The position numbers and the translations under genes are program-made. A stretch of 64,000 bases of DNA from Sulfitobacter mediterraneus. Its GTDB lineage: Bacteria; Pseudomonadota; Alphaproteobacteria; Rhodobacterales; Rhodobacteraceae. Positions 8,412 to 34,363 of this stretch are shown piece by piece. The notes under the pieces are model-generated. The model had not been told where the DNA came from. It searched no databases and worked only from the letters and a program-made list of their open reading frames with translations. Within the stretch, counting starts at the first letter, position 1; every line of letters begins with the position of its first letter. The DNA is taken from positions 1,674,001 through 1,738,000 of the forward strand of contig NZ_CP069004.1 of the NCBI RefSeq assembly GCF_016801775.1, read 5' to 3'.

Positions 8412-8813
8412 GGATTTATCCTTTCACAAGGGGCTCGTTGTCCCTGAATGGTTTTCGAGCGACCATAGGGCGTTTCTCTTCAAATGTCTGCGGCTGGAGA
8501 TGCATTTCCTGCTGCGCCGCGCCGTGCATTTCGTTGAGGCGCAAGTCGCCCAAGCACGATGAGACTGTGCGACCGGGGTGTTTCGGCTCATTTACAGACC
8601 GGCAGCGAGCCCACCTTAAATCACTGATATATGGCCACAAAAAGAGATCTACCTGTCAAAATCGGCCACCAACCACCCATTACCACAGCCGCATCAAGCG
8701 CTGGAATCCGGCCTTGGCCTCGTGACATTTCATAGGCCGATAATAAAGATTTACAACTGGTATGATGACATGATATTGATACCGCATAAAGCAAAACGAA
8801 TAGGGGGAAGACA
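8412..8813. other. Intergenic promoter region upstream of the apiose-type ABC transporter
   Basis: These 402 bp separate the divergent TPR gene and the solute-binding-protein gene. The part near 8750-8783 holds a probable promoter (TTTACA at 8750 and a GATATT-like box 16 bp later) overlapping the TGGTAT-type site. GGTAT (8759-8763) and ATACC (8779-8783) also form an outer inverted repeat. The two overlapping short open frames between 8416 and 8725 have no ribosome sites or recognisable sequence and are not called. Confidence 0.5.
8754..8768 (+). promoter_or_regulatory. Putative GntR operator upstream of the ABC transporter operon
   Basis: CAACTGGTATGATGA matches 13 of 15 bases of the site before the apnL operon (reverse strand 23462-23448, CAACTGGTATAATCA). 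The core T-N-G-T-N3-A-N2-A resembles FadR-type GntR sites. It ends 45 nt before the start codon and overlaps the likely promoter. Confidence 0.55.
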
Positions 8814-10154
8814 ATGTCAAAGGCACTATCAAGATTGGGCTGCGCGGTCAGTTTCGCGGTTGCAGGCCTGACCGGAATGGCCGCTGCACAAGAGACCGTG
8901 CTGGAAGTTTCGGCCACTCAACCAGAGTATTTTGCCCAGGATCGGGCGATCTGGGATCTCTACGAGGAAGAAAATCCCGGCGTAAAGATCGAGCTGTTTG
9001 CAATCAACGAAGACACCGAAGCAGCCTTTCAAGCGCGTGTAGCCGCTGGCGATCCACCCGACATTCGCGGCCTGACATTTCCTACACAAGACAATTACAA
9101 GACATACCTGAACCTCATGGAAATTGATTTTCCGTGGTGGGACAAGGCCAACTACGACGCCCGCCAGATCTTTGAAAAAACCCATGGCGTAAAAGGCTAT
9201 GCCCCCGCATTCAACGTGCAGGGTGGCTTGTTCCTGAACATGATCTACTACGCCGACGAGATGAAGTTGGCCGGACTTGACCCTAAATCAGTGAAATCCG
9301 TCGATGACTTGCGGGCGCTTCTCGAAGAACTCAAGGTCTACGTCGAGGGCCGCGACGATCTGGAATATGTTCTTGATATCGGTTGGCATCCACGTTTCTG
9401 GGGCCGCTGGATGTTGGAAGCATGGGCCGTTGGCCTCGGCGCCTCCAAAGAAGATGTGCGCGATTTGTGGACCGGCAAAATTGCCTGGACCGATGAGGCG
9501 AACAACCCATTGGTGCCGGCCCTGAAACTGGCCAAAGAGTTCACCGAAAAGGGTTATTTCCCGAACAACTGGTGGAATCGCGCATGGGAGCAGGAGTTTG
9601 AAGCCAGCTTTATCACCGGCAAATCCATCCTTGCTGTCCACGGACCTTGGCTTTGGAACAAGGTGATGGCGCAGAATCCCGATGTGGAACTTGACGGCAT
9701 CTTTTTCCCGCCAAATGCCGATGGCGTCGTGTGGCAGGATGCAACAACCGCTGATCGTGGCTCTGCCCTTTATGCGGCCAACAAAGACGATCCGAACTTT
9801 GACGCGGCGAAGAAGGCATTTTACTGGTGGACCTCCCCGGAGATCGTCAAACTGCGCGCCGAAGCTGTTGGCTATGTCCCCGCCATGGATCTGTCCGAAC
9901 AGGGCGGTGTGGAATTGCAAAACCCGCAATATCTCAAGCTGGTCGGGCCATCCCTTGACGCAGGCGAGATCACTTTTGACAGCTCCCTTGGTGGTCAGGC
10001 TGCGGCCGGTCCGATGCAAAAAAGTGGCACACCTTTCGTGATCGAAGATAACGTGATGGCATCTGAAATCGGTGATTACGTTTCCGGTGAACAAAGCCTC
10101 GCTGATTTGCTTGCTCTGATGCAGGAACGTTGGGACCAAGCTTACGGGCAATAG
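8814..10154 (+). CDS. ABC transporter solute-binding protein, family 1 (MalE-like)
   Basis: The 446-residue product has a clear signal peptide (residues 1-25, cleavage after GMAAA) and no lipobox, so it should be a free periplasmic protein. The mature part has the family 1 extracellular binding-protein pattern: an early strand VLEVSATQPEYF, RVAAGDPPDIRG, and late AANKDDPNFDAAKKAFYWW. Family 1 proteins mostly bind oligosaccharides or larger sugars, unlike the ribose-type proteins that were used to discover the D-apiose pathways. Start: ATG with an AGGGGGA site. It opens a run of permease, permease, ATPase genes and then catabolic genes, so it probably delivers the island's substrate. Confidence 0.9.
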   Translation: MSKALSRLGCAVSFAVAGLTGMAAAQETVLEVSATQPEYFAQDRAIWDLYEEENPGVKIELFAINEDTEAAFQARVAAGDPPDIRGLTFPTQDNYKTYLNLMEIDFPWWDKANYDARQIFEKTHGVKGYAPAFNVQGGLFLNMIYYADEMKLAGLDPKSVKSVDDLRALLEELKVYVEGRDDLEYVLDIGWHPRFWGRWMLEAWAVGLGASKEDVRDLWTGKIAWTDEANNPLVPALKLAKEFTEKGYFPNNWWNRAWEQEFEASFITGKSILAVHGPWLWNKVMAQNPDVELDGIFFPPNADGVVWQDATTADRGSALYAANKDDPNFDAAKKAFYWWTSPEIVKLRAEAVGYVPAMDLSEQGGVELQNPQYLKLVGPSLDAGEITFDSSLGGQAAAGPMQKSGTPFVIEDNVMASEIGDYVSGEQSLADLLALMQERWDQAYGQ

Positions 10155-10203
10155 GATCACCCGCTAACCACCTTTTCCACCGGCTATTGCGACGGAGCAA
10201 GGC

Positions 10204-11184
10204 ATGAATACGAGCAGTCAACACGGGCGCGTGGCCTCCAATAAGGCCACGCGCGATCAAGCCGCAAAGGCACGTAGCAGGCGGGAGTTTCTAACCGATC
10301 TGATTTACATCGCACCGCAGTATATCATCTACATCGGCCTGCAGATCCTGCCCTTCGCGATTGCGCTTCCGATCATTTTTACCGATCAGGTGGACTTCCT
10401 TGATCAGGACGTCAATTGGGTCGGGTTCGACAATATCGCCTCGTTGTTTCAGGGGCCGCTTGATGAACGGCTTTTTGCAGCATTGCGGCGCACGATCATC
10501 TTTTCCTGTGTGAATTACGTGATGGTCTTTCTGTTCGGCTTTTTGCTGGCGCTCGCCATGTTCGAATTGGTGTCAAAGCTGAAGGGGCTGTTCTTTACCA
10601 TCATCTATATGCCCTGGATGTTGTCCGGCATCGGGGTTGGCCTGATCATGGTCATGCTGTTTTCCACGGACACCGGATCGTTCAATCTGATTTTGTCCGA
10701 GGCAGGGTTCAGCAACAATGCCTTTGATGCCAAAAGCGAGACAACCTCACTTTATGTCCTGCCCTTCATGTACGGCTGGAAAGCGGCCGGATTTAACATG
10801 GCGCTGTTTCTGGGTGGGTTGCTTGCTATTCCCAGTGAGACAATCGAATCTGCACGCATGGACGGCGCCCGCTATTGGCAGCGTGTCTGGTACATATACC
10901 TGCCGCAGATCGTGCCCAGCATGATCATCGCGACCATCTTTTCCATCATCAATTCTTTCGGGATCTTTGATGAACTTGTCGGCCTCGGTGCATTGGCTGG
11001 CAATCAGAACGGTGAATTCATGTCTATCTTCATCTATCAGCTTGGTTTCGGGTCTGCGACGATGGGCGGCGCCAAGATTGGCACCCTCGCGCAAGGTATA
11101 ACCGCGTCGATGGTGATTTTCCTGCCACTCGTGTTTCTCGCGTTCTGGCTCAACCGGCTGCAAAAGAAATTGAGCTATCACTGA
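10204..11184 (+). CDS. ABC sugar transporter permease (MalF-like)
   Basis: This 326-residue protein has six or so membrane helices and the coupling EAA loop typical of carbohydrate permeases, IPSETIESARMDGARYWQRV, followed by YLPQIVPSMIIA. It is the first of two permeases and should form a heterodimer with the next gene product in the inner membrane. A hydrophilic ~30-residue tail rich in Arg, Lys, Ser and Thr precedes the first helix on the cytoplasmic side. It lies 49 nt after the binding-protein gene; its last base is shared with the ATG of the second permease (TGATG), so the two are translated together. Confidence 0.93.
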   Translation: MNTSSQHGRVASNKATRDQAAKARSRREFLTDLIYIAPQYIIYIGLQILPFAIALPIIFTDQVDFLDQDVNWVGFDNIASLFQGPLDERLFAALRRTIIFSCVNYVMVFLFGFLLALAMFELVSKLKGLFFTIIYMPWMLSGIGVGLIMVMLFSTDTGSFNLILSEAGFSNNAFDAKSETTSLYVLPFMYGWKAAGFNMALFLGGLLAIPSETIESARMDGARYWQRVWYIYLPQIVPSMIIATIFSIINSFGIFDELVGLGALAGNQNGEFMSIFIYQLGFGSATMGGAKIGTLAQGITASMVIFLPLVFLAFWLNRLQKKLSYH

Positions 11185-12185
11185 TGCGTAAAACTACCCG
11201 GAAAAAGTACCTGCTGATTGCCTTCCTATCGGCTTATTGTCTGTTGACGCTGACACCCTTCTATATTCTGGCGGTGCGGGCTTTCACGCCGACAATTGAG
11301 TCCACCGAATTGCACCTTTGGATCCCCGAGCGCCGCGACCTGTCGATGAATGCGCGGATCGGTGATCTATCAACGATCTACAACGTCGATGCTCGCGCCT
11401 TCCGGCGCGAGATGGGGATCAAAGGGTATCTGAACCCCCAGCTGAAACTGAGCCAGATCGCCGAGAAGTATGAGATCGAGCCGGAGAGCATCCGCAGCTA
11501 TCTCGAACCGTTTGTCCAATACAATGGGATTTATACCATTGTGAACAATGGCTTTGTCCGCTCACTCATAGCCACAATCGTTGTTACTGGTGCCTCCGTT
11601 CTGGTCGGGGCCCTTTTGGGGATCATGACCGGATCAGCCCTGGCCGGGTTCCGGCGGCGATGGCATATGTTCGTTTACAACACCTACCTATTGAACATGA
11701 TCATTCCACCCATGATGGTCATCTTGCCCCAATACATCATCATCACGCGGTATCTGGGGTTGGAAAACAGTCTGCTGTCGCTGGTCTTGCTGCACATCAA
11801 AGGCGGCGCCCTGTCCACGATGGTATTTACCTCCTACATCGCAACAGTTCCGCGCGAATTGAAAGAGTCCGTCTATATGGATGGAGGCAAACACTATCAC
11901 TATTTCCTCTACATCCTGCTGCCGCTTATGGGGACACCCTTTGCCGTCTTTGCGTCCATTACCATGCCCTGGTTCTGGAACGATCTGCTACATGCGCTGG
12001 TGCTGCTGAGACCTGACAACTACACCCTGCCCGCATTTGTGGCATCTATAGGCGGCACGTTCACCACCAACTTCGAGGCGATCTTCTCGGGCGTGCTGTT
12101 GTCACTGCTGCCGATCCTGGTCGTTTATCTGGTGTTCCAGAAATTGTTTATTCGCTCGGCCATGGCCGGCGCGGTCAAAGGATAG
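11184..12185 (+). CDS. ABC sugar transporter permease (MalG-like) with a large periplasmic loop
   Basis: The product has 333 residues. Helix 1 (about residues 8-30) is followed by some 85 hydrophilic residues before the next helices, then the usual MalG-type core with the EAA loop VPRELKESVYMDGGKHY and YILLPLMGTPFAVF. The long loop contains charged helical stretches (LKLSQIAEKYEIEPESI) and probably faces the periplasm, where it could touch the binding protein. Such a loop is much longer than in MalG. The start codon overlaps the stop of the previous gene. It partners with that permease and the ATPase gene 4 nt downstream. Confidence 0.92.
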   Translation: MRKTTRKKYLLIAFLSAYCLLTLTPFYILAVRAFTPTIESTELHLWIPERRDLSMNARIGDLSTIYNVDARAFRREMGIKGYLNPQLKLSQIAEKYEIEPESIRSYLEPFVQYNGIYTIVNNGFVRSLIATIVVTGASVLVGALLGIMTGSALAGFRRRWHMFVYNTYLLNMIIPPMMVILPQYIIITRYLGLENSLLSLVLLHIKGGALSTMVFTSYIATVPRELKESVYMDGGKHYHYFLYILLPLMGTPFAVFASITMPWFWNDLLHALVLLRPDNYTLPAFVASIGGTFTTNFEAIFSGVLLSLLPILVVYLVFQKLFIRSAMAGAVKG

Positions 12186-12189
12186 GCCC

Positions 12190-13275
12190 ATGACACAAGT
12201 AACCCTTACCAAAGCCGTCAAACGTTATGGTTCCGTTGAAGTATTGCATGGCATTGATCTGGAAATTGAGGCCAACAAGCTGACGGTCCTGCTTGGCCCG
12301 TCAGGCTGCGGCAAGTCCACCCTGCTGCGGATGATCGCGGGCCTGGAAGACATCAGCGATGGCGAATTGCAGATCGGGGACCGGATCGTGAATGAGGCCG
12401 ACCCGTCGGAACGCGGATGTGCCATGGTGTTTCAGAACTATGCGCTTTACCCGCACCAGACTGTTTTCAAGAACATGGCCTTTCCCCTGAAAATGAAGGG
12501 CACGCCAAAGTCAGAAATTGACATCAAGGTGCGCGAAACCGCCCGTGTGCTTGAGCTTGAGCCGCTTCTGGACAGGCTGCCGCGTGACCTGTCAGGCGGC
12601 CAACGCCAGCGGGTTGCCATGGGCCGTGCGATGATCCGCAATCCCAAGGTGTTCTTGTTCGATGAACCGCTGTCTAACCTTGACGCCGAATTGCGGGTCA
12701 AGATGCGGCTCGAAATTGCCAGATTGCAAAAGGAACTGGGTGCCACAATGATCTTTGTCACCCATGACCAGGTCGAGGCGATGACCCTCGCCGACAACGT
12801 GGTGATCCTGAACAGTGGCTATGTTCAACAGGTCGGTGCGCCGCTTGATATCTACAACCATCCCGCAAACCGATTTGTTGCGGGGTTCATCGGCTCACCC
12901 TCGATGAATTTCCTGCCCGTCGAAAAAGTGGACAACGGGCCAAAAGGATCGGTTGTGTATCTGCAAGGCGGCCTTCAGGCAAAGTTCAAGCGGCAAGTGC
13001 CACAAGGCACCCGCACCTTGGGTGTGCGCCCTGAACATGTGATTGTCGGCGGGAGCACGGTAAACATTGCTGCTGCCGATTTTACCGAACTGGGGGCAGA
13101 GCATTTGGGCGACCGGGCCTATCACCATATTTCGCTGCCGTTTGGCGACTTCACTATTTTGCAGGCCGAAGGTGGGTCGATACCTTCAAGCGATGCATTG
13201 TCCTTGGGTTTTGCCGAAGCGCGGCTTCATTTCTTTGATGATGGCGGCCTCGCACTGACGGGCAAAGACATATGA
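12190..13275 (+). CDS. ABC transporter ATP-binding protein (MalK/UgpC type)
   Basis: The 361-residue product carries all ATPase motifs: Walker A GPSGCGKST (36-44), Q-loop VFQNYALYPH (80-89), signature LSGGQRQR (134-141), Walker B VFLFDEP (154-160) and switch HD in FVTHDQVEAM. A C-terminal TOBE/MalK-type regulatory domain follows (NFLPVEKV, then LGVRPEHV), which is usual for sugar importers of the CUT1 class. CUT1 carriers mostly import oligosaccharides or glycerol-phosphate-like compounds. It follows the permeases by 4 nt and overlaps the next gene in an ATGA. Confidence 0.95.
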   Translation: MTQVTLTKAVKRYGSVEVLHGIDLEIEANKLTVLLGPSGCGKSTLLRMIAGLEDISDGELQIGDRIVNEADPSERGCAMVFQNYALYPHQTVFKNMAFPLKMKGTPKSEIDIKVRETARVLELEPLLDRLPRDLSGGQRQRVAMGRAMIRNPKVFLFDEPLSNLDAELRVKMRLEIARLQKELGATMIFVTHDQVEAMTLADNVVILNSGYVQQVGAPLDIYNHPANRFVAGFIGSPSMNFLPVEKVDNGPKGSVVYLQGGLQAKFKRQVPQGTRTLGVRPEHVIVGGSTVNIAAADFTELGAEHLGDRAYHHISLPFGDFTILQAEGGSIPSSDALSLGFAEARLHFFDDGGLALTGKDI

Positions 13276-14006
13276 TCGCTGCCTTGCTCCGCCGGTCCTT
13301 GGTTGATCTGTGGGACAATGCCGTTTTCTGTTTCGGCCTGAATATCGCTGTGCTGAGCCTTGCCGCGCTTTTTCTATACCCGATCTCGCTGACCTATGCG
13401 TTGTCGCCGGTGTTGTTTGCGCCCGCGATGGTGGTCGCGGTTTGGTTTGGCCTTGTGGCATTGGCCGCCACTGCAGAACTGGTAAACCAAGTTGCGGCGC
13501 GGGCCGATATCAACGTTTCAGCGATGCGGCCCGACTGGCTGTTTTGCCTTGTTTTGGCCTTCACCTTGGTCGGGCTTGGCGGGGCGGCAATGCTTCTGCT
13601 GCTGGGCGCTGATGCGGGCTCTGCCCAAGGGGTAGCGCGGGCCGTGGGCGGCGGTTGGCTGATCCTCGTCGTGCTGGAACTTGCCGTATTGTCACCCGCC
13701 TTTGCCTTGGATCGCGCCGCCGCCCTGCCCCGCAGACTTGCCGAACTTGCCGGGATTGTCCTGCGGTATCCGCTGGCCTGCTTTACCATTCTGGCATTGT
13801 CGATTTTGGCCATGGCAGCCACGGTTGGCCTGCTCCCCGGCCCTGCTGGCGCGGCCTATCTCTATCTGCGGTCCGGCCGCATGATGCGCGTGGGATTGAA
13901 CGCAGCGGGCAATCCAAATCCGATGACCGAAGCCATTCATCATGAACGGCAGCGTGTCGCCAACCGCACACCGCGTAATTTGTTGCAGCCATGGCGTACG
14001 TCGTAG
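13272..14006 (+). CDS. Integral membrane protein, possibly YesL/DUF624-like
   Basis: This 244-residue protein has about five or six hydrophobic helices and little else; the C-terminal ~40 residues are hydrophilic and basic (HHERQRVANRTPRN). A small membrane protein of the YesL/DUF624 type often accompanies CUT1 sugar ABC genes, and the layout here, including a short N-terminal cytoplasmic stretch (LLRRSLVDLWDNAVFCF), fits that group, but the match is by eye only. It overlaps the ATPase gene by 4 bp, so it is part of the transport operon. A role in transporter assembly or sensing is inference. Function unknown. Confidence 0.55.
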   Translation: MIAALLRRSLVDLWDNAVFCFGLNIAVLSLAALFLYPISLTYALSPVLFAPAMVVAVWFGLVALAATAELVNQVAARADINVSAMRPDWLFCLVLAFTLVGLGGAAMLLLLGADAGSAQGVARAVGGGWLILVVLELAVLSPAFALDRAAALPRRLAELAGIVLRYPLACFTILALSILAMAATVGLLPGPAGAAYLYLRSGRMMRVGLNAAGNPNPMTEAIHHERQRVANRTPRNLLQPWRTS

Positions 14007-14033
14007 TTGCCAGATCAAACCAAAGGAAACTGA

Positions 14034-15467
14034 ATGAGCCGGCCTAACATTCTTGTCATCGTAACCGACCAACAAAGGGTGGATTCCGTCGGGGCCTACG
14101 GGTCCACTGTCTGCCGGACCCCGAACATGGACAAGGTTGCCAAAGCCGGCATGCGATTTGACAAGGCCTTTACGCCCACAGGCCTGTGCTCGCCCGTGCG
14201 GTGTTCCCTGCTCAGTGGTGTTTATCCGCATGAACATCGCGTGTTGACCAATGTGGGCCTGCATCCGGTGCGCGCCCAACTTGAACCTGCCGATGACCGG
14301 ATGTCTGCCGCTTTGAAGTCGGCAGGATACCGGATGGGCTATGTTGGCAAATGGCATGTCTCAAAGATCGACCCGCCGGGGTTTGGCTACGAAGATTATG
14401 TCAGTCTGGGCGACTACATGACTTGGCGGCAGGATCAGGGGTTAGCCGTGCCTGACGCCTTTAACGATTACCTCACCCAACGCGCTGTCAGGGACGAGGC
14501 ACCTGCCGACAAAAGCCGCCCCGCCTTTCTGGCCGACAATGCCATTCGACTGATCGACAAACACCATGCGGGTGATGATCCATTTTTCCTGCGCCTTGAT
14601 TTTCACGGGCCGCATTTCCCCAATGTTGTGCCAGAGCCCTATTTTTCGATGTACGACCCGGCGGATATCCCGCAATGGCCGAACAATGCCGACACCCTGG
14701 AGGGAAAACCCTCGGTCCAGAGCATCAAACAAAAGCACTGGCGCACCGAAAACCTGCCCTGGGCCGATTGGGCCAAACTGATCTCGGCCTATTACGGCGA
14801 GATCACAATGATCGACGATCAGGTCGGGCGTGTGCTTGACCACCTCACGGCTCTGGGGCTCGACGATGATACGCTGGTAATCTGGACATCCGATCACGGC
14901 GACACCATCGGGGCCCATGGAATATGCAACAAAGACTACACGATGTACGAAGAGATCTACCGCGTGCCGATGCTCATGCGGTGGCCCGGAGTGATCCCGC
15001 AGGGCAGCACCTGTGACGCCTTCGTGCATCATTTTCTCGACATTTGCGGCACGGTCATGGAAATCGCCGGTGCCGAAAGGCCAGACGTATTTCATGGCCG
15101 GTCCCTGCTCAGCCAAATGAAAGGCGCCCCACCCCCGGACGACTGGCCAGATAGCGCCTATTGCGAATTTCACGGCAGCCATATGGGGCTGTATTCCATG
15201 CGGCTGCTGACCACCGACGATTGGGCCTACATCTACCACACCAACGATATCGACGAGCTTTATGATCGCAAGGAAGACCCGTGGCAGATGGTCAATCTGG
15301 CCGAAAGCAAGGACCACGCAGACGTCTTGGATATGCTCAAACGCAAGATGGTCGGATGGATGGCCGATACAAATGACCATTTGCACAATGAATGGACCGT
15401 TGATTGGCTGACCAAAGATCCAGAACTGATAGCGCAGGCGCCCGGACGCCGGCGGACCAAATGGTGA
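14034..15467 (+). CDS. Sulfatase (type I, formylglycine-dependent), cytoplasmic
   Basis: The 477-residue product has the sulfatase fold motifs. N-terminal RPNILVIVTDQQ supplies metal ligands (D12, Q13). The maturation motif CSPVR (52-56) carries the cysteine to be converted to formylglycine. GYVGKWH-type and HGDTIGAHG segments follow, and the C-terminus ends in DPWQMVNLAES as in many S1-class enzymes. There is no signal peptide, so it should act in the cytoplasm on an imported sulfate ester. An AAAGGAA ribosome site precedes the ATG. It sits between the transport genes and the sugar dehydrogenase, 4 nt before the latter, which implies that the imported substrate is sulfated. Substrate position and sugar are not known. 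Confidence 0.9.
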   Translation: MSRPNILVIVTDQQRVDSVGAYGSTVCRTPNMDKVAKAGMRFDKAFTPTGLCSPVRCSLLSGVYPHEHRVLTNVGLHPVRAQLEPADDRMSAALKSAGYRMGYVGKWHVSKIDPPGFGYEDYVSLGDYMTWRQDQGLAVPDAFNDYLTQRAVRDEAPADKSRPAFLADNAIRLIDKHHAGDDPFFLRLDFHGPHFPNVVPEPYFSMYDPADIPQWPNNADTLEGKPSVQSIKQKHWRTENLPWADWAKLISAYYGEITMIDDQVGRVLDHLTALGLDDDTLVIWTSDHGDTIGAHGICNKDYTMYEEIYRVPMLMRWPGVIPQGSTCDAFVHHFLDICGTVMEIAGAERPDVFHGRSLLSQMKGAPPPDDWPDSAYCEFHGSHMGLYSMRLLTTDDWAYIYHTNDIDELYDRKEDPWQMVNLAESKDHADVLDMLKRKMVGWMADTNDHLHNEWTVDWLTKDPELIAQAPGRRRTKW

Positions 15468-15471
15468 CAAC

Positions 15472-16473
15472 ATGGGACTGAGAATTGGACTATCCGGCGC
15501 TGGCTATATCGCGCCCGTACATATCGAGGCATGGCGCCGCGCAGGTGCAGAAGTGGTGGCCATCGCGGACCCGGACCTTGCACGGACACATTTCACCGCG
15601 GATCACTACCAGATTGGCAAAATCCACACGGATGCACGCGCCATGATAGATGCAGGCGAGATTGACGTGCTGGACGTCGCGGCCCCACGACAGGTGCACA
15701 TCGAACAATCGCTGGCCGGTCTCGCGGCCGGATTGCCTGTCATTTGTCAAAAACCGCTTGCACCCTCACTGGCCGAGGCGGAAGAGTTTGCGCAAAAGCT
15801 GTGCGCGGAAGACCGGTTTATGGTGCATGAAAACTGGCGGTTCCGTCAGCCCTACCGCCGGATCAAACAATGGATTGACCAGGGTCTTGTCGGTGACATT
15901 CGCCATGTCTCGATGGCGATGCGGTCCACCGCGATGCTGCCTGATGAGACCGGCATGCGGCCTGCGGCTGGCCGCCAGCCGTTCATGTTGAAAGAGCCCC
16001 GCCTCGTGCTTGCCGAAGTGTTGATCCACAACATCGACACGGTTCGTTTCCTTGTCGGGGATCTCAATCTGATCTCTGCCCGCGCCGCCCGCGTGGATCC
16101 TCAAATCACCGGCGAAACCTCGGCAACCTTATATGCAGAAACCACCAACGCGGTTCCGGTGTTGATCAGCGGCGATATGACCGCACATGGCACCCCAAAC
16201 GGCGCAAGCGATTGGCTGGAAATACTGGGTTCGAAGGGGCGCGTGACCCTTGAAAACACTTTGCTGCGCCTGCATGGGCCGCAACCTCAGGAAATCGACT
16301 TTGGTGAGGACAACCTGCTTGCCGAGGCCGCATCCGCGACCATCGCGCATTTTGTTGAACAACTGGAAAGCGGCGGCGCCTTTGAGACCGGTCTTGAGGA
16401 CAATCTCAAAACGCTGCGTCTGGTCGAACAAGCCTATGCGCTTTCTGCCCCGATAGGTGCGGCGCCGCAGTAA
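15472..16473 (+). CDS. apsD: Gfo/Idh/MocA-family oxidoreductase, probable D-apiose dehydrogenase
   Basis: The 333-residue protein has the Rossmann motif GLSGAGYIAPVH (about 6-17), the family's lysine motif in VICQKPLAPS (around residue 88), and a substrate-domain segment with HENWRFRQPYRRI and LIHNIDTVRFLVGD. Family members oxidise or reduce sugars and inositols with NAD(P). D-apiose dehydrogenase (ApsD), which makes D-apionolactone, belongs to this family, and the pathway enzymes downstream of it (lactonase, oxidoisomerase, kinase, RuBisCO-like decarboxylase) are encoded next door; that context is the main reason for the name. It is the last gene of the plus-strand transport operon and converges on the GntR gene. 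Confidence 0.65.
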   Translation: MGLRIGLSGAGYIAPVHIEAWRRAGAEVVAIADPDLARTHFTADHYQIGKIHTDARAMIDAGEIDVLDVAAPRQVHIEQSLAGLAAGLPVICQKPLAPSLAEAEEFAQKLCAEDRFMVHENWRFRQPYRRIKQWIDQGLVGDIRHVSMAMRSTAMLPDETGMRPAAGRQPFMLKEPRLVLAEVLIHNIDTVRFLVGDLNLISARAARVDPQITGETSATLYAETTNAVPVLISGDMTAHGTPNGASDWLEILGSKGRVTLENTLLRLHGPQPQEIDFGEDNLLAEAASATIAHFVEQLESGGAFETGLEDNLKTLRLVEQAYALSAPIGAAPQ

Positions 16474-16493
16474 CCATCCGTGCGAGAGGGTTG

Positions 16494-17219
16494 CTAGGAA
16501 TCGCTGCGGGCGTTGGCCTGATCGTACAGGGCATTGCTGCGCATCAGGTGCCGTTTCATCGCGCTGCGCGCCTGCGCCGGATCCCCCTGGGCGATGGCAT
16601 CAAAAATCTCTTGATGCTCCGACAGGGTCAGTTCTTCGAGGCCCGGCGTGCGCACATTGGCGACGTGAAACACCGAAAGCCAGTCGAAAATCGCATGGGT
16701 CACAGCACTGTAAAGCGGATTGCCGGGTATCTCGGCGATTGCCTGATGGAAACGGCCGTCCAAAGTCATGAATTTCACCGGCGCATCCCGCGCATCCCGC
16801 AGCGCATCCATGATCTCGGCCAGATGATCCAATTGCGCCTGCGTGCGCATATCTGCGGCCCGGCCCACCAAATAGCATTCCAGCCCGATCCGGGCTTCCT
16901 TGAGATGCTCAAGCGTGGTCCCGGAATGCGACAGGATATGCTTCATTGTCAGGCTCATCTGATCCAGCGCACCATCCATGGACGGTTCTGCGACCCGCGG
17001 CCGTTCGCCGTGGCGCACCTCGATCAAACCCATGCTTTGCAGCGATTGCATCGCCTCTCGAATCGCGGGTCGGCCAACGCCATACTGGTTCATCAACTCG
17101 CGCTCTGACGGCAGGATATCCCCCGGCCCCAAAGCCTCGCGTTGAATGGTCTCAAGAATGCGCTCTTTGACTTCGTCGCTCAGCTTTCGACGTCGTATCG
17201 GTTGGGTCTGGGGGGCCAA
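16494..17219 (-). CDS. GntR-family regulator, FadR/FCD subfamily (probable repressor of the apiose island)
   Basis: The 241-residue protein has an N-terminal winged helix (KERILETIQREALGPGDILP, then SERELMNQYGVGRPAIREAM, residues ~18-60) and a C-terminal FCD ligand domain. The FCD domain keeps a likely metal/ligand set: Asp and His in DGRFHQAIAE, His in LSEHQEIFDAI, and His in MKRHLMRSN. FCD regulators sense sugar acids and related compounds. The start is a TTG with GAGG 5-6 nt upstream; no in-frame ATG occurs nearby. It lies inside the island between dehydrogenase and oxidoisomerase genes, and related TGGTAT/TTGTAT sites occur upstream of itself and the other three transcription units, so it is probably the local regulator. 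Confidence 0.88.
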   Translation of the reverse strand: MAPQTQPIRRRKLSDEVKERILETIQREALGPGDILPSERELMNQYGVGRPAIREAMQSLQSMGLIEVRHGERPRVAEPSMDGALDQMSLTMKHILSHSGTTLEHLKEARIGLECYLVGRAADMRTQAQLDHLAEIMDALRDARDAPVKFMTLDGRFHQAIAEIPGNPLYSAVTHAIFDWLSVFHVANVRTPGLEELTLSEHQEIFDAIAQGDPAQARSAMKRHLMRSNALYDQANARSDS

Positions 17220-17261
17220 GGTTGCCTCGCTATCTCAAGATCTTCCGATCGCTCATTGCAC

Positions 17262-17272
17262 TTGTATGACAT
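17262..17272 (-). promoter_or_regulatory. Putative GntR autoregulatory operator
   Basis: TTGTATGACAT is an imperfect palindrome (TTGT-N3-ACAT) close to the FadR-type consensus T-N-G-T-N3-A-C-N-A. It lies 42 nt upstream of the GntR start codon, at a distance similar to the three other candidate sites in this island. Confidence 0.45.
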
Positions 17273-17345
17273 GTAAACCAGTGAACCCGACGTTTCCAGC
17301 CCTTTGGCCGCAGTGTTGACTTATCCCGGGGTTTGCCGCATAAAG

Positions 17346-17355
17346 TGGTATACTA
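17346..17355 (+). promoter_or_regulatory. Putative GntR operator upstream of apnO
   Basis: TGGTATACTA is a near-perfect palindrome around GTATAC and shares the TGGTAT half-site with the sites at 8754-8768 and 23448-23462. It ends 43 nt before the apnO start codon, within an AT-rich stretch (TATGTTAATCACATAAT) that may contain the promoter. Confidence 0.5.
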
Positions 17356-17398
17356 TGTTAATCACATAATCTCTATCTGAAATCCAAACGGTAAGTAC

Positions 17399-18235
17399 AT
17401 GAACAATAAAATTGCGATACTCGGTGCAGGCGGAAAAATGGGTGCGCGAATTTCGCGAAAAATCCATGAATCTCAATATGATCTGGTTGCGATCGAAATT
17501 TCTGACGAAGGCCGGGAACGCCTTGGCAATGCAGGCATTCCGGTGACCGATGGCGATGATTGGATCAAAACGGTTGATGCTGTTGTGCTTGCCCTGCCGG
17601 ATTCTGTTATCGGGCAGGTCGCGGACAAATTGGTGCCACGCCTCAAGCCTGGCACGATTGTACTGATCCTGGACGCGGCTGCGCCCTATGCCGGGGTCTT
17701 GCCCGAACGCGAGGATATCACCTACTTTATCGGCCATCCGTGTCATCCGCCCATTTTCAACGACGAAACCGATTGGGAGGCCCGCCGCGACTATCACGGC
17801 GGTGTGGCCAATCAAGCCATCGTTTGCGCCTTGATGCAGGGACCAGAGGAACACTACGATATTGGCCGCGAGATTTGTGAAACCATGTGGTCGCCGATCA
17901 TCCGCACGCACCGGGTGACCACCGAACAACTGGCCATTCTTGAGCCGGGCTTGTCCGAGATGGTCGCCATGCCCTTCATCGACGTCATGGTCGAAGCGGT
18001 GGATGAATGCGAAAAGACCTACGACATCGACCGGCAAGCCGCATTTGATTTCCTGATCGGGCATCTCAACGTCGAATTGGCCATGTGGTTCGGATTCTCA
18101 CCCAAAGTGCCGTCTGACGCTGCGCTTCGGTTGATGGAATTTGCCAAGAAAGTGGTGGTCAAGGATGACTGGCGCCGCGCCCTCGACCCCAAAGTGGTCA
18201 AGGAAGCCTCTGAGCTGATCGTTCGCGGCGGTTGA
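17399..18235 (+). CDS. apnO: D-apionate oxidoisomerase (phosphogluconate-dehydrogenase-like)
   Basis: The 278-residue product has an N-terminal NAD-binding motif ILGAGGKMGARISR (GxGxxG at residues 9-15) and a helical C-terminal domain (QAAFDFLIGHLNVELAMWFG) typical of the family annotated as 'phosphogluconate dehydrogenase (decarboxylating) C-terminal'. D-apionate oxidoisomerase belongs to this group; it oxidises D-apionate and moves a hydroxymethyl group to give 3-oxo-isoapionate. A conserved active-site stretch IGHPCHPPIFNDE (around residue 114) is visible. The call leans on that family plus the neighbouring lactonase, kinase and RuBisCO-like genes. The next gene begins 3 nt after its stop, so both form a short operon. 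Confidence 0.8.
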   Translation: MNNKIAILGAGGKMGARISRKIHESQYDLVAIEISDEGRERLGNAGIPVTDGDDWIKTVDAVVLALPDSVIGQVADKLVPRLKPGTIVLILDAAAPYAGVLPEREDITYFIGHPCHPPIFNDETDWEARRDYHGGVANQAIVCALMQGPEEHYDIGREICETMWSPIIRTHRVTTEQLAILEPGLSEMVAMPFIDVMVEAVDECEKTYDIDRQAAFDFLIGHLNVELAMWFGFSPKVPSDAALRLMEFAKKVVVKDDWRRALDPKVVKEASELIVRGG

Positions 18236-18238
18236 TCC

Positions 18239-19072
18239 GTGACGCTTGCAGTTTCCACGGTTCTCTACGATGGCTACAGCTTTGATGCCGGTCTCGCCGA
18301 TATAGCCGAGGCCGGTTTCACGCTGGTCGAACCTGCCTATATTCATGGCTATGTCGATTTTGGTGAGACCGACCTTTCCGAGCCCGCCGCCCGGCAATTG
18401 CGGCACCGCGCCCAGACCGAAGGCCTGGGCATTCGCGCGGTGTCGGCACATCTGGATTTGGGCGAGGCGGACGCGGCAGAAATGCTGCGCCGCCGGGTTC
18501 GTTTTGCGGCGGAACTGGGCGCGGAATTCCTGATCACCAATTCTGCGTCTCATGCCCGAATGGACAGTTTTCGCGCCGCGCTTGAGACTGCGCAAGATGA
18601 ATGCGAGGCAACGGGCGTTGTTCTGGCCCTGGAAAACCCCGGGCACGGGGCGGACAACCTGATTGGTACGCTTGCCGAGGGCAACGCGTTGCTTGACCGG
18701 ATCGGCGCTGATTGGATCGGATTGAACTACGATATCGGCAATGTTTTCACATATTCACGCGGCGCATGTGACCCGCTTGACGATCTGGCCGGTGATCTGC
18801 GGCACGTCGTTCACTACCACCTCAAAGACATTGCAACCGTCGCCGATGATTGGGTGTTTACGCCCATTGGCCAAGGCGATTTGCCCTATGACCAGATCAT
18901 TCCTGCACTGATGCAGCATGGGGATGTCCCCGCCTCGTTGGAAATGCCATTGCGCCTGGCGCGTCCGGGCCGCGCGGATCCGGCGCGGCGCGAACATCCG
19001 TGCAGCCGCACCGAAATTGCGGCGGCCCTCACCACCTCACGCGCATTTTGCCGTAGTTACGGGTTGGTGTGA
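18239..19072 (+). CDS. oiaC: Sugar phosphate isomerase/epimerase-family TIM barrel, possible 3-oxo-isoapionate decarboxylase
   Basis: The 277-residue protein is a xylose-isomerase-like TIM barrel: an N-terminal strand LAVSTVLYDGYSF, the EAGFTLVEPAYIHGY segment, metal-ligand strands VLALENPGHG and IGLNYDIGNVF, and VHYHLKDIA. In apiose pathways 3-oxo-isoapionate decarboxylase (OiaC) comes from this superfamily and yields L-erythrulose without phosphorylation. The position directly after apnO (GTG start 3 nt beyond its stop) supports this, but an isomerase for a downstream tetrose-phosphate is an alternative. The gene's 3' end overlaps the end of the convergent kinase gene by 16 bp. The last third is unusually Arg-rich (RLARPGRADPARREH). 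Confidence 0.5.
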   Translation: MTLAVSTVLYDGYSFDAGLADIAEAGFTLVEPAYIHGYVDFGETDLSEPAARQLRHRAQTEGLGIRAVSAHLDLGEADAAEMLRRRVRFAAELGAEFLITNSASHARMDSFRAALETAQDECEATGVVLALENPGHGADNLIGTLAEGNALLDRIGADWIGLNYDIGNVFTYSRGACDPLDDLAGDLRHVVHYHLKDIATVADDWVFTPIGQGDLPYDQIIPALMQHGDVPASLEMPLRLARPGRADPARREHPCSRTEIAAALTTSRAFCRSYGLV

Positions 19073-20424
19073 TCCCGCACACCGTCGCGCAAGTCACAAA
19101 AAAAGCTGGTGCGCCCCATCTGCCCGCCCTTCAACGCGATCTCTAGCCCGTCTGTTGCCGGATCGTCCGACGCCGCACGAAACATCGCCGCCCCCGGCGA
19201 AACCGGTGCAAGCGCCTCAAGCGCAAATATGTTCAGCTCTTGGGCGGCATGGCTGGAACTGTCGCCGCCGGATATGACAACCCGCGACGCGCCGGTCTGT
19301 GCAATGAGATCTTGCAGAAGTCGGCCAAGGACATGCCCGATGCGACGGTTCGTTTCGTGCAGTGTCAGGCCAGCTGCCGCGACTGACCGCCGGTACCGCT
19401 CAACCGCGGGATCGTCAGGCCCGCGCGCCGTGTAGATCAGCGGGCTTTGCCCAGACTGGAATGCCTTGACTGCAGCGCCGCGCGCGGCGTCCAGCGCCCT
19501 GCGCGATGCCGGACCATCTACAGCAATCTCAGCAGCATCAAGGGCGATCCCGACGAATCCGTGTGAAGTGGCATGTGCAATCTGCGCCGCAGTGACCGCA
19601 GAAACAGAGCCTGACACCGCGAGTATATTCTGCACCGGAGCGAGGCGCGGCAGCGCGGGCGCCGTTGGGATAACGCCGGTCGCGGCCCAATGGGCCACCA
19701 GTGCGTAAGCCACCCCCTGCGAGCCGACCGCGAATTGCGGCGCTTGGCGGTTGTCCCAGATCAACTTGCCGCAACGGGACATGTCAGCCTCGCTCTGCGC
19801 ATCCAAACTGATGATTTCCGCGCCGCTTTGCACGGCATTGGCCAGACAGGACGCAGCCCCTTCATCATCAACCAACGCTGCCAGATCAACCAACCCGAAC
19901 TGCCGCCCGGTCTGGCGTGAGAGGTGCAGCGCAACATCGGATTCCTGCATCGGCGTGACCGGATGCCGGGCCATCACGGGATGCCGGTCCAACCGGTACA
20001 CTTTGGTCGGCGCACCGGCAAAAAGATGGCCAAAGCACTGGTAGCGGCGCATTTGCGGTGCCGCGACGAGGCAGGGCACCCATGCATTGTCAAAAACCCG
20101 CTGGCCAATATCAATGGCCCGGCCAATTGACCCGACCTGCGGGGCGGAATCCAGTGTGGAGCAAACCTTGTAAAGCGCGATCTCCGCCCCGCTCTGATGC
20201 AACCACTCAAAGGCCACTGGCAGATTGGCCTCCATCCATTCTGGCGTTTGCGCCCGCGCCGCCCCCGCAAGTCCAACCGCCCGTGCAGCGCTAAATCGGT
20301 CCCTTTGCTGGTCGGTTGGCGGCTTTAGGAACAAGACCCCGGACACCCCTGCAAAAGCCAATACCTCCAGCACTGCGGCTGATCCGGTGAAGTCGTCACC
20401 ATACCACGCCATCAAGGGGGTCAT
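19057..20424 (-). CDS. oiaK: Four-carbon acid sugar kinase family protein, probable 3-oxo-isoapionate kinase
   Basis: The 455-residue product shows both domains of the DUF1537 / four-carbon acid sugar kinase family. The N-terminal sugar-binding domain has YGDDFTGSAAVLE (8-20). The C-terminal nucleotide-binding domain has ISGGDSSSHAAQELNI and a terminal LKGGQMG motif. Members phosphorylate tetronates and related acids with ATP; OiaK phosphorylates 3-oxo-isoapionate at C4. The gene overlaps the RuBisCO-like gene upstream by 4 bp (ATGA), the same kinase-plus-RuBisCO-like pairing known from apiose clusters. It is the last gene of the minus-strand operon and its stop lies inside the 3' end of the convergent TIM-barrel gene. 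Confidence 0.82.
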   Translation of the reverse strand: MTPLMAWYGDDFTGSAAVLEVLAFAGVSGVLFLKPPTDQQRDRFSAARAVGLAGAARAQTPEWMEANLPVAFEWLHQSGAEIALYKVCSTLDSAPQVGSIGRAIDIGQRVFDNAWVPCLVAAPQMRRYQCFGHLFAGAPTKVYRLDRHPVMARHPVTPMQESDVALHLSRQTGRQFGLVDLAALVDDEGAASCLANAVQSGAEIISLDAQSEADMSRCGKLIWDNRQAPQFAVGSQGVAYALVAHWAATGVIPTAPALPRLAPVQNILAVSGSVSAVTAAQIAHATSHGFVGIALDAAEIAVDGPASRRALDAARGAAVKAFQSGQSPLIYTARGPDDPAVERYRRSVAAAGLTLHETNRRIGHVLGRLLQDLIAQTGASRVVISGGDSSSHAAQELNIFALEALAPVSPGAAMFRAASDDPATDGLEIALKGGQMGRTSFFCDLRDGVRDHTNP

Positions 20425-21668
20425 TGATCAAACGCCTTGATTGCCGCCGCCAGCGCCGGATTGCCCCGCGCCGCTTCGCCGATAGGAATACCATTCATGG
20501 CCGCATCCCATGCCGCCCGCATCGCCCGAACACCGGCGGCCGCGCCGTGGGGGTGGCCTGCAATGCCGCCCCCAGCCGCGTGGATCAGATCTGCGCTGCC
20601 CAATTGCCGATAGGTTTCCGCCGCCTGCAACGGGGTCTGCGCCGAAGAGAAGACAGGCATCGCAAGGCAGGGCGCCTCAGGCCTCAGCGGCGTCAAACAA
20701 GCCCGCGCCGAACGGATCACACTTTCGTCGGCCTCGCAAAATTTGTTGCGCAGCCCGTTTACATGCATGTGGTCCGCACCCGCCAGCCGCCAAAACTTTT
20801 GCCACGCCACGTAAGACCACCCAAGCATCGGTTCACGGCTCAGATATCCCCACCCATTCCGGTGCGCATGGATCGGCAATTCGGAATGCCGCGCCAAGGC
20901 CAACATCCCTGACAGTCCGACAGAGTTGAGCGATACCATCACACAGGTTCCGCCAAAATCCCGTATCAGATCATGCCGGCGGCGCATCTCGTCCACTTCT
21001 CCTGTCAGATTGAATGCAAACATAACCTTGCGGCCCGTCCGGTCTGCGGCGCGGTTGATCACCTCCATGACTGCACGCGCCCGATCTTCGAAGGGGCAGG
21101 CAGGACCATCGGCCTGTAATTCGTCATCCTTGATAAAATCAACGCCAGCTTCGGCAAGGTCCGCAACCATCGCAGCGGTTTGTGTTGGGTCAAGTCCGAC
21201 GGATGGTTTGATAATCGTGCCAATCAAGGGCCGCTTATGCACCCCGCTCAACCGGCGGGTGCCCTCTATGCCAAATTTTGGGCCGGGGTTGTGGCTGGTG
21301 AATGCGGCGGGCACCCGCAGATCCAGAATGCGCAGCCCGGTGAACTGGCGCAGCTCGAACAGATTGCCTGAGATCGTTGCCATCAGATTGGGTAGTGACG
21401 GCCCCAGGTTTTCCAGCGGCCAGGACAGGGTCACCTTGGCCACGGCATAGGATTGCGCCGGGATCGCCCCCGGCAACGAGGGCTGCGCAACGGTGTCTAT
21501 TGTCTCGACATATTCGACCCGCGCTGCGGCGCGTTCGATCAATTCGGGCGTCTCCGATGCCAGTTTCACGAAGGTTCCTGACGATTGCTCTCCTGCCATT
21601 ACGGCGGCGGCATCTGCAGGATCAATCGGGGTTTCGATCAAATAGTCAGCTTCTATTCGGTCACTCAT
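20421..21668 (-). CDS. oiaX: RuBisCO-like protein, probable 3-oxo-isoapionate-4-phosphate decarboxylase
   Basis: The 415-residue product has the RuBisCO large-chain fold: SGNLFEL (100-106), GTIIKPSVGL (150-159) with the catalytic lysine K154, and DFIKDDELQ (177-185), where K180, D182 and E183 match the carbamylated lysine and magnesium ligands. The magnesium site is therefore intact. In apiose pathways RuBisCO-like proteins act as decarboxylase (OiaX) or transcarboxylase/hydrolase (OiaT) on 3-oxo-isoapionate 4-phosphate; I favour OiaX but sequence reading alone does not separate them. The ATG at 21668 overlaps the end of apnL by 8 bp; the longer open frame to 21803 lies within apnL and is not family-like. 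Confidence 0.8.
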   Translation of the reverse strand: MSDRIEADYLIETPIDPADAAAVMAGEQSSGTFVKLASETPELIERAAARVEYVETIDTVAQPSLPGAIPAQSYAVAKVTLSWPLENLGPSLPNLMATISGNLFELRQFTGLRILDLRVPAAFTSHNPGPKFGIEGTRRLSGVHKRPLIGTIIKPSVGLDPTQTAAMVADLAEAGVDFIKDDELQADGPACPFEDRARAVMEVINRAADRTGRKVMFAFNLTGEVDEMRRRHDLIRDFGGTCVMVSLNSVGLSGMLALARHSELPIHAHRNGWGYLSREPMLGWSYVAWQKFWRLAGADHMHVNGLRNKFCEADESVIRSARACLTPLRPEAPCLAMPVFSSAQTPLQAAETYRQLGSADLIHAAGGGIAGHPHGAAAGVRAMRAAWDAAMNGIPIGEAARGNPALAAAIKAFDQ

Positions 21669-23412
21669 CTGCGCGGCTCCGGTTTTGAGGCAAAGGTCTG
21701 TCTGGATGCATAGAGATGTGGCAGGACATCGCAGGCAGCACGCGATGGGTGCCTGCGGCGGCGTCTGTGCCAACCAACAAAGTGCCAATGGGCGAAATGC
21801 CATCGGGCAACGTCTGCGAGGTAAGACTGCAATTTGCGGTTATCGCTGTTGTGCCTGCGCAGAGGCGGTAAACACCGTTGTCATAGGCCGCTGTCACATT
21901 ACGCCCTGACAAACCTGCCAACTGGCCAACCACATGGCCAATCGGATGCAGGCGCCGGTTTTGGTCAGCGATAGAAAACGGACCATCCAGCGCCCCGAGG
22001 CAGATCGCCTCCGCCCCGGCACGGGCTGCAAGGGTTGCCGCAGCGACGGCATATGCGGCACCAAAGCTGGTGCGCTGCCGAGGATCATCATCGGTCATGG
22101 TCATCTGTGCGCCATCCGGGTTGGGCAGCAGCCCATCTGCATGCGGATTGCTGCGCATCGCGATCGCCACCAGACCAAGTCGATATGCCCGATCAACGGC
22201 TATGGCGCAGGCACTGCGCATCACGTGGCGCAACCCCGTGAGGGTTTCAAGAACGGATTGATCATCGGCGGAATGCACAATTGCGGCATTGCCATGGGTT
22301 ACATACGCCCCCAGTCCTCCAGGTGGCCGGCGACGGTTCAGCTCCGTGAAATGGGTCAAGGCGCCAACGCCCAAACCTGCGCCTCGAAAGGCTTGCGCGG
22401 CAAGGTCGGCAGCCGCGGCAAGGCCAAGCCCCGAAGGGACGGCCCCATCCGGCGGCAGCCGTTTGAGATACCCCGAAGGAAGCGCAACAACATGTGCCAC
22501 TTCAACGCCCGCGTCTCTCAGATCTTGGGCAAGTCCGCGCATAAAATATTCGGCCCGCGCCGGATCGGGCGGCAGGATAATCTCTGCATCAATGGGGGTG
22601 CCACCGGACAGATTGCCCAATTCAGCATCCGTCCAAGGTGCATCTGAATCAAACCGGACCAACCGTCGCGCGCCTTTCGGAAGGGCCGTCTGGGGGGCCG
22701 GTTTGCCCGCGACAAGCAAGATCTCCGGCATCCGGACGCTGCGCGGTTGGGTGGTCTTGACCGTTGCCATTTTTTGCGGTGCGCCAGTGATCTTGACGGT
22801 CACGCGCTGGCAAATCACCTCCCCTGCTTCAAACCGTCTGGGACGCGGATCGGCAAGTGGCGGACAATAGGCCTTGAAGGATGCATCAGACCAGTTCCGC
22901 TGATCCTCCAACTCAAAAACCTCGCCCTCAAAAGTGAGGGCAACCTTTGCCGACTGCACGGTATATTCGATGCCCTGCATATCGAAAAACGGCTGTTCGG
23001 GGCTGATCAGCTCTGGAAACCTCGCCAATTCAACCCTACCGTTTGAATGCAGGACGTTTGCAGATCTCCCGGCAAGATCGTCGATGGGGAACAAGACATT
23101 GAACCCGGCGCGATTGACCTCAAAGGCCCGCCTGCTGGTCAGCGACATCTCAAGTGAGATCAAACCGCTGTCTTGCGCCGTGACCGACAGACAGCTCTCG
23201 AAATTGTCCGCAAACACCTCGCGACGGGTCCAATGAAACTGCTCTGGCGTTGTGGTTTGGACCTCTTCGACATCCTGTGATGGCAAGACTTCCCACTTAA
23301 GACCACGAACCGCAAAGAACACCGAGTGCAGGATATTGACCCCGCCCCAAGAAAGATCGCGCAGACCCGCGCCTGCCGTCGAAAACGTCAGTTGGTTGAG
23401 GTTCACTGCCAA
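21661..23412 (-). CDS. apnL: D-apionate lactonase (probable)
   Basis: The 583-residue protein has an N-terminal beta-rich domain (about 1-210; GVNILHSVFFAVRGLKWEV, then a strand-rich region to ICQRVTVKITG), a middle TIM-barrel-like domain (about 230-500; EYFMRGLAQDLRDAGVEVAH, VGALTHFTELNRR) and a short C-terminal beta domain, without signal peptide. This three-part layout is that of D-apionate lactonase, which opens D-apionolactone to D-apionate, and it heads an operon with RuBisCO-like and kinase genes. The start codon appears to be TTG (23412) or GTG (23406); no ATG is available and no strong ribosome site is visible, so the exact start is uncertain. A TGGTAT operator-like site lies 35 nt upstream. 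Confidence 0.72.
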   Translation of the reverse strand: MAVNLNQLTFSTAGAGLRDLSWGGVNILHSVFFAVRGLKWEVLPSQDVEEVQTTTPEQFHWTRREVFADNFESCLSVTAQDSGLISLEMSLTSRRAFEVNRAGFNVLFPIDDLAGRSANVLHSNGRVELARFPELISPEQPFFDMQGIEYTVQSAKVALTFEGEVFELEDQRNWSDASFKAYCPPLADPRPRRFEAGEVICQRVTVKITGAPQKMATVKTTQPRSVRMPEILLVAGKPAPQTALPKGARRLVRFDSDAPWTDAELGNLSGGTPIDAEIILPPDPARAEYFMRGLAQDLRDAGVEVAHVVALPSGYLKRLPPDGAVPSGLGLAAAADLAAQAFRGAGLGVGALTHFTELNRRRPPGGLGAYVTHGNAAIVHSADDQSVLETLTGLRHVMRSACAIAVDRAYRLGLVAIAMRSNPHADGLLPNPDGAQMTMTDDDPRQRTSFGAAYAVAAATLAARAGAEAICLGALDGPFSIADQNRRLHPIGHVVGQLAGLSGRNVTAAYDNGVYRLCAGTTAITANCSLTSQTLPDGISPIGTLLVGTDAAAGTHRVLPAMSCHISMHPDRPLPQNRSRADE

Positions 23413-23447
23413 GGGCTCAGACTTTTCTCGAAAAACAAAAGATCACC

Positions 23448-23462
23448 TGATTATACCAGTTG
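23448..23462 (-). promoter_or_regulatory. Putative GntR operator upstream of the apnL-oiaX-oiaK operon
   Basis: Read on the minus strand the site is CAACTGGTATAATCA, 13/15 identical to the site upstream of the ABC transporter operon (8754-8768). It lies 35 nt before the apnL start. The shared extended core CAACTGGTATRAT argues for one regulator acting at both operons. Confidence 0.6.
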
Positions 23463-27938: not shown

Positions 27939-27955
27939 CGTTATACTGGTCCGGC

Positions 27956-28678
27956 CTAATCGACATCCACGACAATAACGGTGATGTTGTCCGCGCCGCC
28001 GCCATCCAATGCGATCTGGATCAACCGGTCCGTGATCGTCTCAAGCGGGGATTGCGCCAGAACCTTTTCGAGCATCCCAAAGGTCGCATATTTGGTCAGC
28101 CCGTCAGAGCATAGCAAGAACCGGTCGCCCGGCTCCACTTCGCCGCGCACTTTGTCCAGCTCCAGCTCTTCGCCCACCCCAACCGCGCGGGTGATGGCAT
28201 TGGATTGCGGATGCTGTTCGGCCTCGTCCCAGGTCAACTGACCAGATTGCACCAAAGTTGCAACGATAGAATGATCTGCCGTCAGCATCTGAATTTCCCC
28301 ATCGCGAAAGCGGTAGATGCGGCTGTCACCGGCCCAGATCCCGACAAAGTGGGAATTGGCCAGAACCAGACAGGCAACCGTTGCGCCGATCACCTCAACC
28401 TGCCGGGTCTCGGCTTCGGCTAGGATCATCGCATGGGCGCTTTGGATTGCACCGCGCAGGGCATGCATCGTATCGGCGGCAGGCAGGTCGGGGTCGATTG
28501 TGGCAATCAACCCGGTGATCAATTGGCTGGCGTAATCCCCTGCCGCATGGCCGCCCATACCGTCGGACACCACCCAGATCTTCTGCTCTGGCAGGGCCAA
28601 AAGCGAATCTTCATTTACGGCCCGTTTGAGCCCGACATGGGATCGCGCGTTATAGCGCACTTGTGTGATGTCGCTCAT
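27956..28678 (-). CDS. pppA: PP2C-type serine/threonine phosphatase PppA
   Basis: The 240-residue product carries the PP2C motifs: SHVGLKRAVNEDSLL (13-27), VVSDGMGGHAAGDYAS (metal-binding Asp), WAGDSRIYRF, a DHS segment, LLCSDGLTKY and a C-terminal DNITVIVVDVD. These residues coordinate the two metal ions used for dephosphorylation of Ser/Thr. In T6SS loci PppA reverses phosphorylation by PpkA. It is the last gene of the long minus-strand operon and overlaps tagF by 4 bp (ATGA). Confidence 0.95.
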   Translation of the reverse strand: MSDITQVRYNARSHVGLKRAVNEDSLLALPEQKIWVVSDGMGGHAAGDYASQLITGLIATIDPDLPAADTMHALRGAIQSAHAMILAEAETRQVEVIGATVACLVLANSHFVGIWAGDSRIYRFRDGEIQMLTADHSIVATLVQSGQLTWDEAEQHPQSNAITRAVGVGEELELDKVRGEVEPGDRFLLCSDGLTKYATFGMLEKVLAQSPLETITDRLIQIALDGGGADNITVIVVDVD

Positions 28679-34348: not shown

Positions 34349-34363
34349 CGCGGCAGACCTCTC

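Follow-up and report, generated by a model that had tools for sequence, protein, structure and literature searches.

A gene island in a 64,000-nt stretch of Sulfitobacter mediterraneus DNA (the window, to the whole of which coordinates refer) is most likely a sulfatase-bearing variant of the oxidative D-apiose pathway for a small sulfated apiose compound. The D-apiose/apionate island is real, and every gene named in the original prediction was found in its place (Table 1); the 244-aa membrane protein, the TIM-barrel protein, the likely role of the regulator and a shared upstream element are additional to it. A front end of a CUT1 ATP-binding cassette (ABC) importer, membrane protein, Cys-type sulfatase and Gfo/Idh dehydrogenase is joined to the known apionate pathway (ApnL, ApnO, OiaK, OiaX), an unusual combination, and three operons (importer-sulfatase, ApnO and ApnL) are each preceded by the upstream element, AACTGGTATRAT. 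We put the chances at even that the island is a single regulon whose substrate, which we infer, is a small sulfated compound of apiose, such as its O-sulfate or a short sulfated apioside. The fuller proposal, a dedicated sulfated-apiose pathway in which CUT1 uptake and cytoplasmic desulfation would be followed by a second, independently derived apiose dehydrogenase that supplies ApnL-ApnO-OiaK-OiaX, all governed by one regulator, is made tentatively, as possible and short of probable.

Around the regulator gene, two blocks of the island point away from and towards each other. The + strand block running from binding protein through two permeases, ATPase, membrane protein and sulfatase to dehydrogenase (8814-16473) is likely one operon because the gaps between its genes are small or overlapping, and ApnL, OiaX and OiaK lie with overlapping ends on the - strand (23412 down to 19057). 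The pattern AACTGGTAT(G/A)AT was found before the binding-protein gene (8755) and ApnL (23461, - strand), with a variant before ApnO (17343), 49-59 bases upstream of the gene starts. The element was also present in loci of Rhodobacteraceae CCMM004 (L004) and a Rhizobiaceae metagenome-assembled genome (MAG; L005) and in locus L043, with a shorter match in L006. A loose form of the pattern matched three times inside the island and nowhere else in the window. Six sites, drawn from L004, L043 and L005 and including one upstream of TctC in L004, were made into a matrix, which ranked the three window sites 1-3 of 127,956 positions; this is no blind test because the pattern was first chosen by eye.

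The element was then counted around OiaK genes of other Rhodobacteraceae. OiaK (E 1e-70) was present in 46 of 394 Rhodobacteraceae genomes; two of the 394 carry the sulfatase (at E 1e-80 or better), and both are among the 46. For 44 of the 45 other OiaK places, slices were fetched that measure 5.9 to 19.5 kb (36/44 longer than 19 kb), genes past the end of a slice or contig being missed; the remaining place, in genome G162, shares its coordinates with L027, a locus with no annotated or matched sulfatase. The 44 loci held 38 loose matches, compared with 2.65 in simulated sequence (maximum 6), and 31 strict matches in 26 loci, compared with 0.1. Most of the loose matches (33/38) lay near the start of a cluster gene, which was ApnO in 14 of those cases. 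The strict element occurred in 26/33 loci with a NanR-like GntR gene versus 0/11 without one (Fisher p 4e-6) and the loose element in 28/33 versus 1/11 (p 1e-5), p values that are too small because the loci are related. The NanR-like regulator probably controls both halves of the island through the shared element. Judged by its sequence, the importer-sulfatase operon bears the mark of the apionate regulon whether the element acts as promoter or operator. In CCMM004, the same element stands before a TctC-type binding protein gene (L004 16359-16383, - strand), which suggests that a tripartite tricarboxylate-type transporter is part of the regulon there.

A scan of one genome per species across 84,980 species returned eight loci, six of them with the sulfatase at 61-86% identity. 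Importer, membrane protein, sulfatase, Gfo/Idh, regulator, ApnO, OiaK and OiaX were all found in both L004 and L005, and ApnL was kept in the window and L004. Kinship to CCMM004 places the host of the window in the Rhodobacteraceae. In the window as in L004 and L005, the sulfatase gene lies within an operon, with the importer genes on one side and the dehydrogenase gene on the other; because the grouping of importer, sulfatase, Gfo/Idh and back end is repeated in L004 and L005, it exceeds chance. Recurrence in three genomes and the shared element both support a link between the apionate genes and the importer and sulfatase. Loci L006 and L009 belong to one bin (Co_bin.244; 658-base overlap at 92.7%) and carry importer, sulfatase, TctC, a second sulfatase and Gfo/Idh, with OiaK on another contig of the bin. 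L009 also has, next to a Gfo/Idh of the same type, a 1005-aa open frame (2216-5233) in which residues 248-665 form a sulfatase domain. In a protein database, importer and sulfatase homologues shared the longest-contig values 54360, 635973 and 12879, importer and Gfo/Idh homologues 11034 and 11557, and sulfatase and Gfo/Idh homologues 15462 and 4930; read indirectly, these matches suggest that the homologues lie on the same contig.

The sulfatase matched PF00884 (E 2.8e-51) and PF16347, with CSPVR at residue 52. Across a family of 102 rows, C52 was kept in 101 and R56 in 102 (CxPxR); each of C52, R56, K106, H108, H194, D287, H288 and K300 is conserved in no fewer than 101 rows, and 100 rows have D12. 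By fold, CxPxR motif and metal- and sulfate-binding residues, the protein is a predicted type I (formylglycine) sulfatase. Its best-scoring solved relative was the exo-2S-iota-carrageenan sulfatase PDB 6pt4 (184 bits, catalytic motifs aligned). A signal peptide was judged absent from the start position and a crude hydrophobicity score, not from a dedicated predictor, and 101/102 rows have at most 10 additional residues at the N terminus. The original description, a sulfatase without signal peptide between transporter and dehydrogenase, agrees with these data and with the coordinates.

In the back end, OiaK, OiaX and ApnL all scored below the curated NCBIfam equivalog cut-offs (700, 700 and 750 bits; Table 1). 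Two clusters served as yardsticks, a ribose-type one from Salipiger (L026) and an ApsD-bearing one from SC52 (L028): their OiaK proteins scored 452 and 519 bits and their ApnL proteins 633 and 646, all below cut-off, and OiaX scored 774 (above) and 420 (below). By these scores neither OiaK nor OiaX is out of the ordinary, and only ApnL is clearly more divergent. The ApnL-like lactonase nevertheless matched NF049900 at E 1.7e-97 despite its bit score. Among 23 ApnL proteins taken from the fetched loci and compared in a tree, the window and CCMM004 sequences grouped together (100/100) next to L060 (99/94), nested within the family; all 23 share 32 invariant positions that are polar or glycine. 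The ApnO-like protein is 46-50% identical to counterparts in L005, L025, L026, L028 and L030, and no NCBIfam ApnO model matched it. The OiaX-like protein matched the RuBisCO-like protein PDB 3nwr (E 8e-122) and has the GTIIKP and KDDE motifs. Lactonase, oxidoisomerase, kinase and RuBisCO-like protein are thus placed by sequence in the families of the oxidative D-apiose/apionate pathway, as the original prediction had read from motifs. The TIM-barrel protein (61% identical in L004) had no counterpart in L005 or in the 44 other OiaK slices; we can only guess at an isomerase or OiaC-like decarboxylase.

The CUT1 importer appears complete from its sequences, with MalE-type binding protein, two permeases and UgpC/MalK ATPase. 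It does stand in place of the ribose-type importer of known pathways, as predicted, and it is not a unique trait: among the 44 slices, CUT1 parts (permease or binding protein) were near OiaK in 7 and ribose-type binding proteins in 10, and in L060 CUT1 genes immediately adjoin a cluster that includes ApsD and ApnL. The adjoining membrane protein is 60% identical in L004 and 48% in L005 and was found in none of the 44 slices; a 247-aa ORF at its place in L006 did not align with it at E 1e-10. Profile searches matched no glycoside hydrolase family among the island proteins scanned, which makes the oligosaccharide-type substrate first suggested unlikely; the better candidate is a small sulfated sugar or apioside. 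The slices further held ApsD and ApnL together in 15 cases, ApsD alone in 2, ApnL alone in 2, ApnO in 39, OiaX in 42, GntR in 33 and the sulfatase in none, so the apionate back end joins varied front ends, of which the sulfatase front end is rare.

Cytoplasmic desulfation before oxidation stays the best reading, its chemistry being a prediction from genes. The order of steps is likewise the one that we infer. The CUT1 importer would take up the sulfated apiose compound, from which the sulfatase, an enzyme class assigned by family, would remove sulfate in the cytoplasm; the Gfo/Idh enzyme may then oxidize the freed sugar to its lactone. Going by family membership and the published pathway, ApnL would open the lactone, ApnO would yield 3-oxo-isoapionate, and OiaK would phosphorylate this product ahead of decarboxylation by OiaX. 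The NanR-like regulator would control both halves jointly through the upstream element that is seen in the sequence.

Several observations weigh against this reading or fit other accounts of the island. Within the window alone, pattern counts are weak (2 matches, equalled in 2/100 shuffles; 2 matches, equalled in 13/100), and the element core resembles an extended -10 promoter box, so the element may be a promoter as well as an operator. The literature searched yielded no sulfated apiose, and apiose is not sulfated in the structures given in an excerpted review; seagrass apiogalacturonan as the source is a guess. It is somewhat unlikely, in our judgement, that the front end processes a different small sulfated sugar, one that likewise feeds ApnO-OiaK-OiaX through its acid or lactone. 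Such a substrate would suit the dehydrogenase, which falls outside a 21-row ApsD clade (support 96/99), is only 30-32% identical to ApsD (tblastn) and may therefore differ in substrate. It would also suit the lack of ApnL in the L005 genome at E 1e-10, the Co_bin.244 locus, whose fetched pieces carry no apionate gene beside importer, TctC, sulfatases and Gfo/Idh, and the 25/44 OiaK slices that lack both ApsD and ApnL, because of which the back end alone is no proof of apiose. The ApnO-OiaK-OiaX module may serve substrates besides apiose. Against a non-apiose substrate stand the retention of ApnL in the window and CCMM004 and the Gfo/Idh model, whose predicted fold is nearest to 5uhw and in which the ApsD residues are kept. 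No canonical ApsD was found in the window or in the CCMM004 genome, and the window genome has no other ApsD, the Gfo/Idh gene being its only ApsD-like one. The earlier label of probable ApsD is not borne out by clade, although the predicted fold and the lack of another ApsD in the genome fit it. Two of the 25 loci (among L054-L097) were inspected and have FAD-linked oxidase, PfkB kinase, 2-hydroxyacid dehydrogenase or epimerase genes nearby.

That this is an apiose island of the ordinary kind, which imports apiose by CUT1 and has a sulfatase that frees sulfate only from a side substrate or is carried along, is decidedly unlikely: the CUT1 genes near seven other OiaK loci would allow it, as would the sulfatase relatives of L007 (66%) and L008 (61%), which stand alone among other genes in genomes with no strong OiaK match (none and 146 bits), and it is at odds with the sulfatase position inside three operons and with the longest-contig values repeatedly shared by importer and sulfatase homologues. 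We give little credence to the hydrolase being no sulfatase in practice, using an unmodified cysteine or cleaving a phosphate or phosphonate ester. It is true that neither the formylglycine-generating enzyme (FGE, PF03781) nor the anaerobic maturase (TIGR03942) matched in the window genome, and that CCMM004, the exception among seven genomes compared (FGE in 6/7), has no FGE and a best TIGR03942 match of only 24 bits. The conserved CxPxR and the nearest solved relatives, which are sugar sulfatases (184 bits, versus 115 and 111.5 for phosphonate/phosphodiester hydrolases), argue otherwise, and maturase absence does not exclude activity because in E. coli an unidentified enzyme makes the modification (PMC5870055, in excerpt). 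The window genome has a second Cys-type sulfatase (CAPGR), and it (as G000) and G404, two nearly complete genomes, carry Cys-type sulfatases with no recognised FGE or anaerobic maturase. It is barely credible that the Gfo/Idh protein works as oxidoreductive sulfoquinovosidases do, by NAD-dependent cleavage of a glycoside, and so frees apiose from a sulfated apioside.

The choline sulfatase BetC acts in the cytoplasm after import. Choline-O-sulfate use via BetC (PMC5870055, in excerpt) resembles the proposed route in its Cys-type class I sulfatase and small sulfate ester; the window enzyme is of another subfamily (179 bits against the choline-sulfatase model, cut-off 433), and importer and product differ. 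Compared with 6pt4, an S1 sulfatase acting on carrageenan, the window enzyme has no N-terminal extension and lies beside apiose genes. The oxidative pathway ApsD-ApnL-ApnO-OiaK-OiaX (Carter et al. 2018, as cited in an excerpt of PMC6302742) shares the ApnL, ApnO, OiaK, OiaX and NanR-like regulator families with the island (compare Salipiger L026 and Martelella L030), which differs in its CUT1 instead of ribose-type importer, its sulfatase and membrane protein, its Gfo/Idh of another clade and its extra TIM protein. Another marine member of the Rhodobacteraceae, strain LCG007, is reported to grow on D-apiose and to have lactonase, dehydrogenase, oxidoisomerase, kinase and decarboxylase genes in its apiose cluster (PMC11747546, in excerpt); the word "sulfatase" is absent from the main text of that paper.

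Sulfated sugars and apiose have so far been handled as separate topics. If our reading is true, a natural molecule, sulfated apiose or an apioside, would have been predicted from genes, pointing to an unrecognised marine pool of it, to a sulfatase matured without known maturases and to a second type of apiose dehydrogenase; a swappable front end would be plugged into a common apionate back end via one upstream element. With this element and a gene set already to hand, the question can be put to a direct test.

Table 1. Features of the island, with positions in the window
Feature	Position	Strand	Remarks
Shared upstream element AACTGGTATGATGACATGATATT, before importer-sulfatase operon	8755..8777	+	Same element before binding-protein gene in L004 and L005; weaker in L006
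CUT1 substrate-binding protein	8814..10154	+	SBP_bac_8
CUT1 permease 1	10204..11184	+	BPD_transp_1; UgpA-like
CUT1 permease 2	11184..12185	+	BPD_transp_1; UgpE-like
UgpC/MalK-type ABC ATPase	12190..13275	+	NF008653, 451 bits (exceeds UgpC cut-off of 432)
Membrane protein, 244 aa, about 5 hydrophobic segments, linked to importer	13272..14006	+	No Pfam family above cut-off
Cys-type sulfatase (CSPVR), cytoplasmic type	14034..15467	+	PF00884, PF16347
Gfo/Idh dehydrogenase, sulfatase-linked clade, probable apiose-type dehydrogenase (predicted)	15472..16473	+	
NanR-like GntR/FCD regulator	16494..17219	-	NF003011, 281.5 bits (exceeds NanR cut-off of 260); co-occurs with upstream element
Shared upstream element, variant AAGTGGTATACTATGTTAATCAC, before ApnO	17343..17365	+	
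ApnO-like D-apionate oxidoisomerase (predicted)	17399..18235	+	PF16896 (PGDH_C), E 2.2e-60
AP_endonuc_2 xylose-isomerase-like TIM-barrel protein	18239..19072	+	PF01261
OiaK-like 3-oxo-isoapionate kinase (predicted)	19057..20424	-	NF042436, 501 bits
OiaX-like RuBisCO-like decarboxylase (predicted)	20421..21665	-	NF042437, 447 bits; ATG at 21665 is preferred start; open frame reaches 21803
ApnL-like D-apionate lactonase (predicted)	21661..23412	-	NF049900, 327 bits
Shared upstream element AACTGGTATAATCAGGTGATCTT, before ApnL-OiaX-OiaK operon	23439..23461	-	

Upstream of the island, genes for an MFS_2 sugar transporter, an alpha/beta hydrolase and a short-chain dehydrogenase lie in a row (3016-6276). 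On its other side, Type VI secretion genes occupy 25767-42881, among them a protein kinase (25767-27938, + strand), IcmF (29358-32918, - strand) and a ClpV-like AAA protein (40170-42881, - strand).

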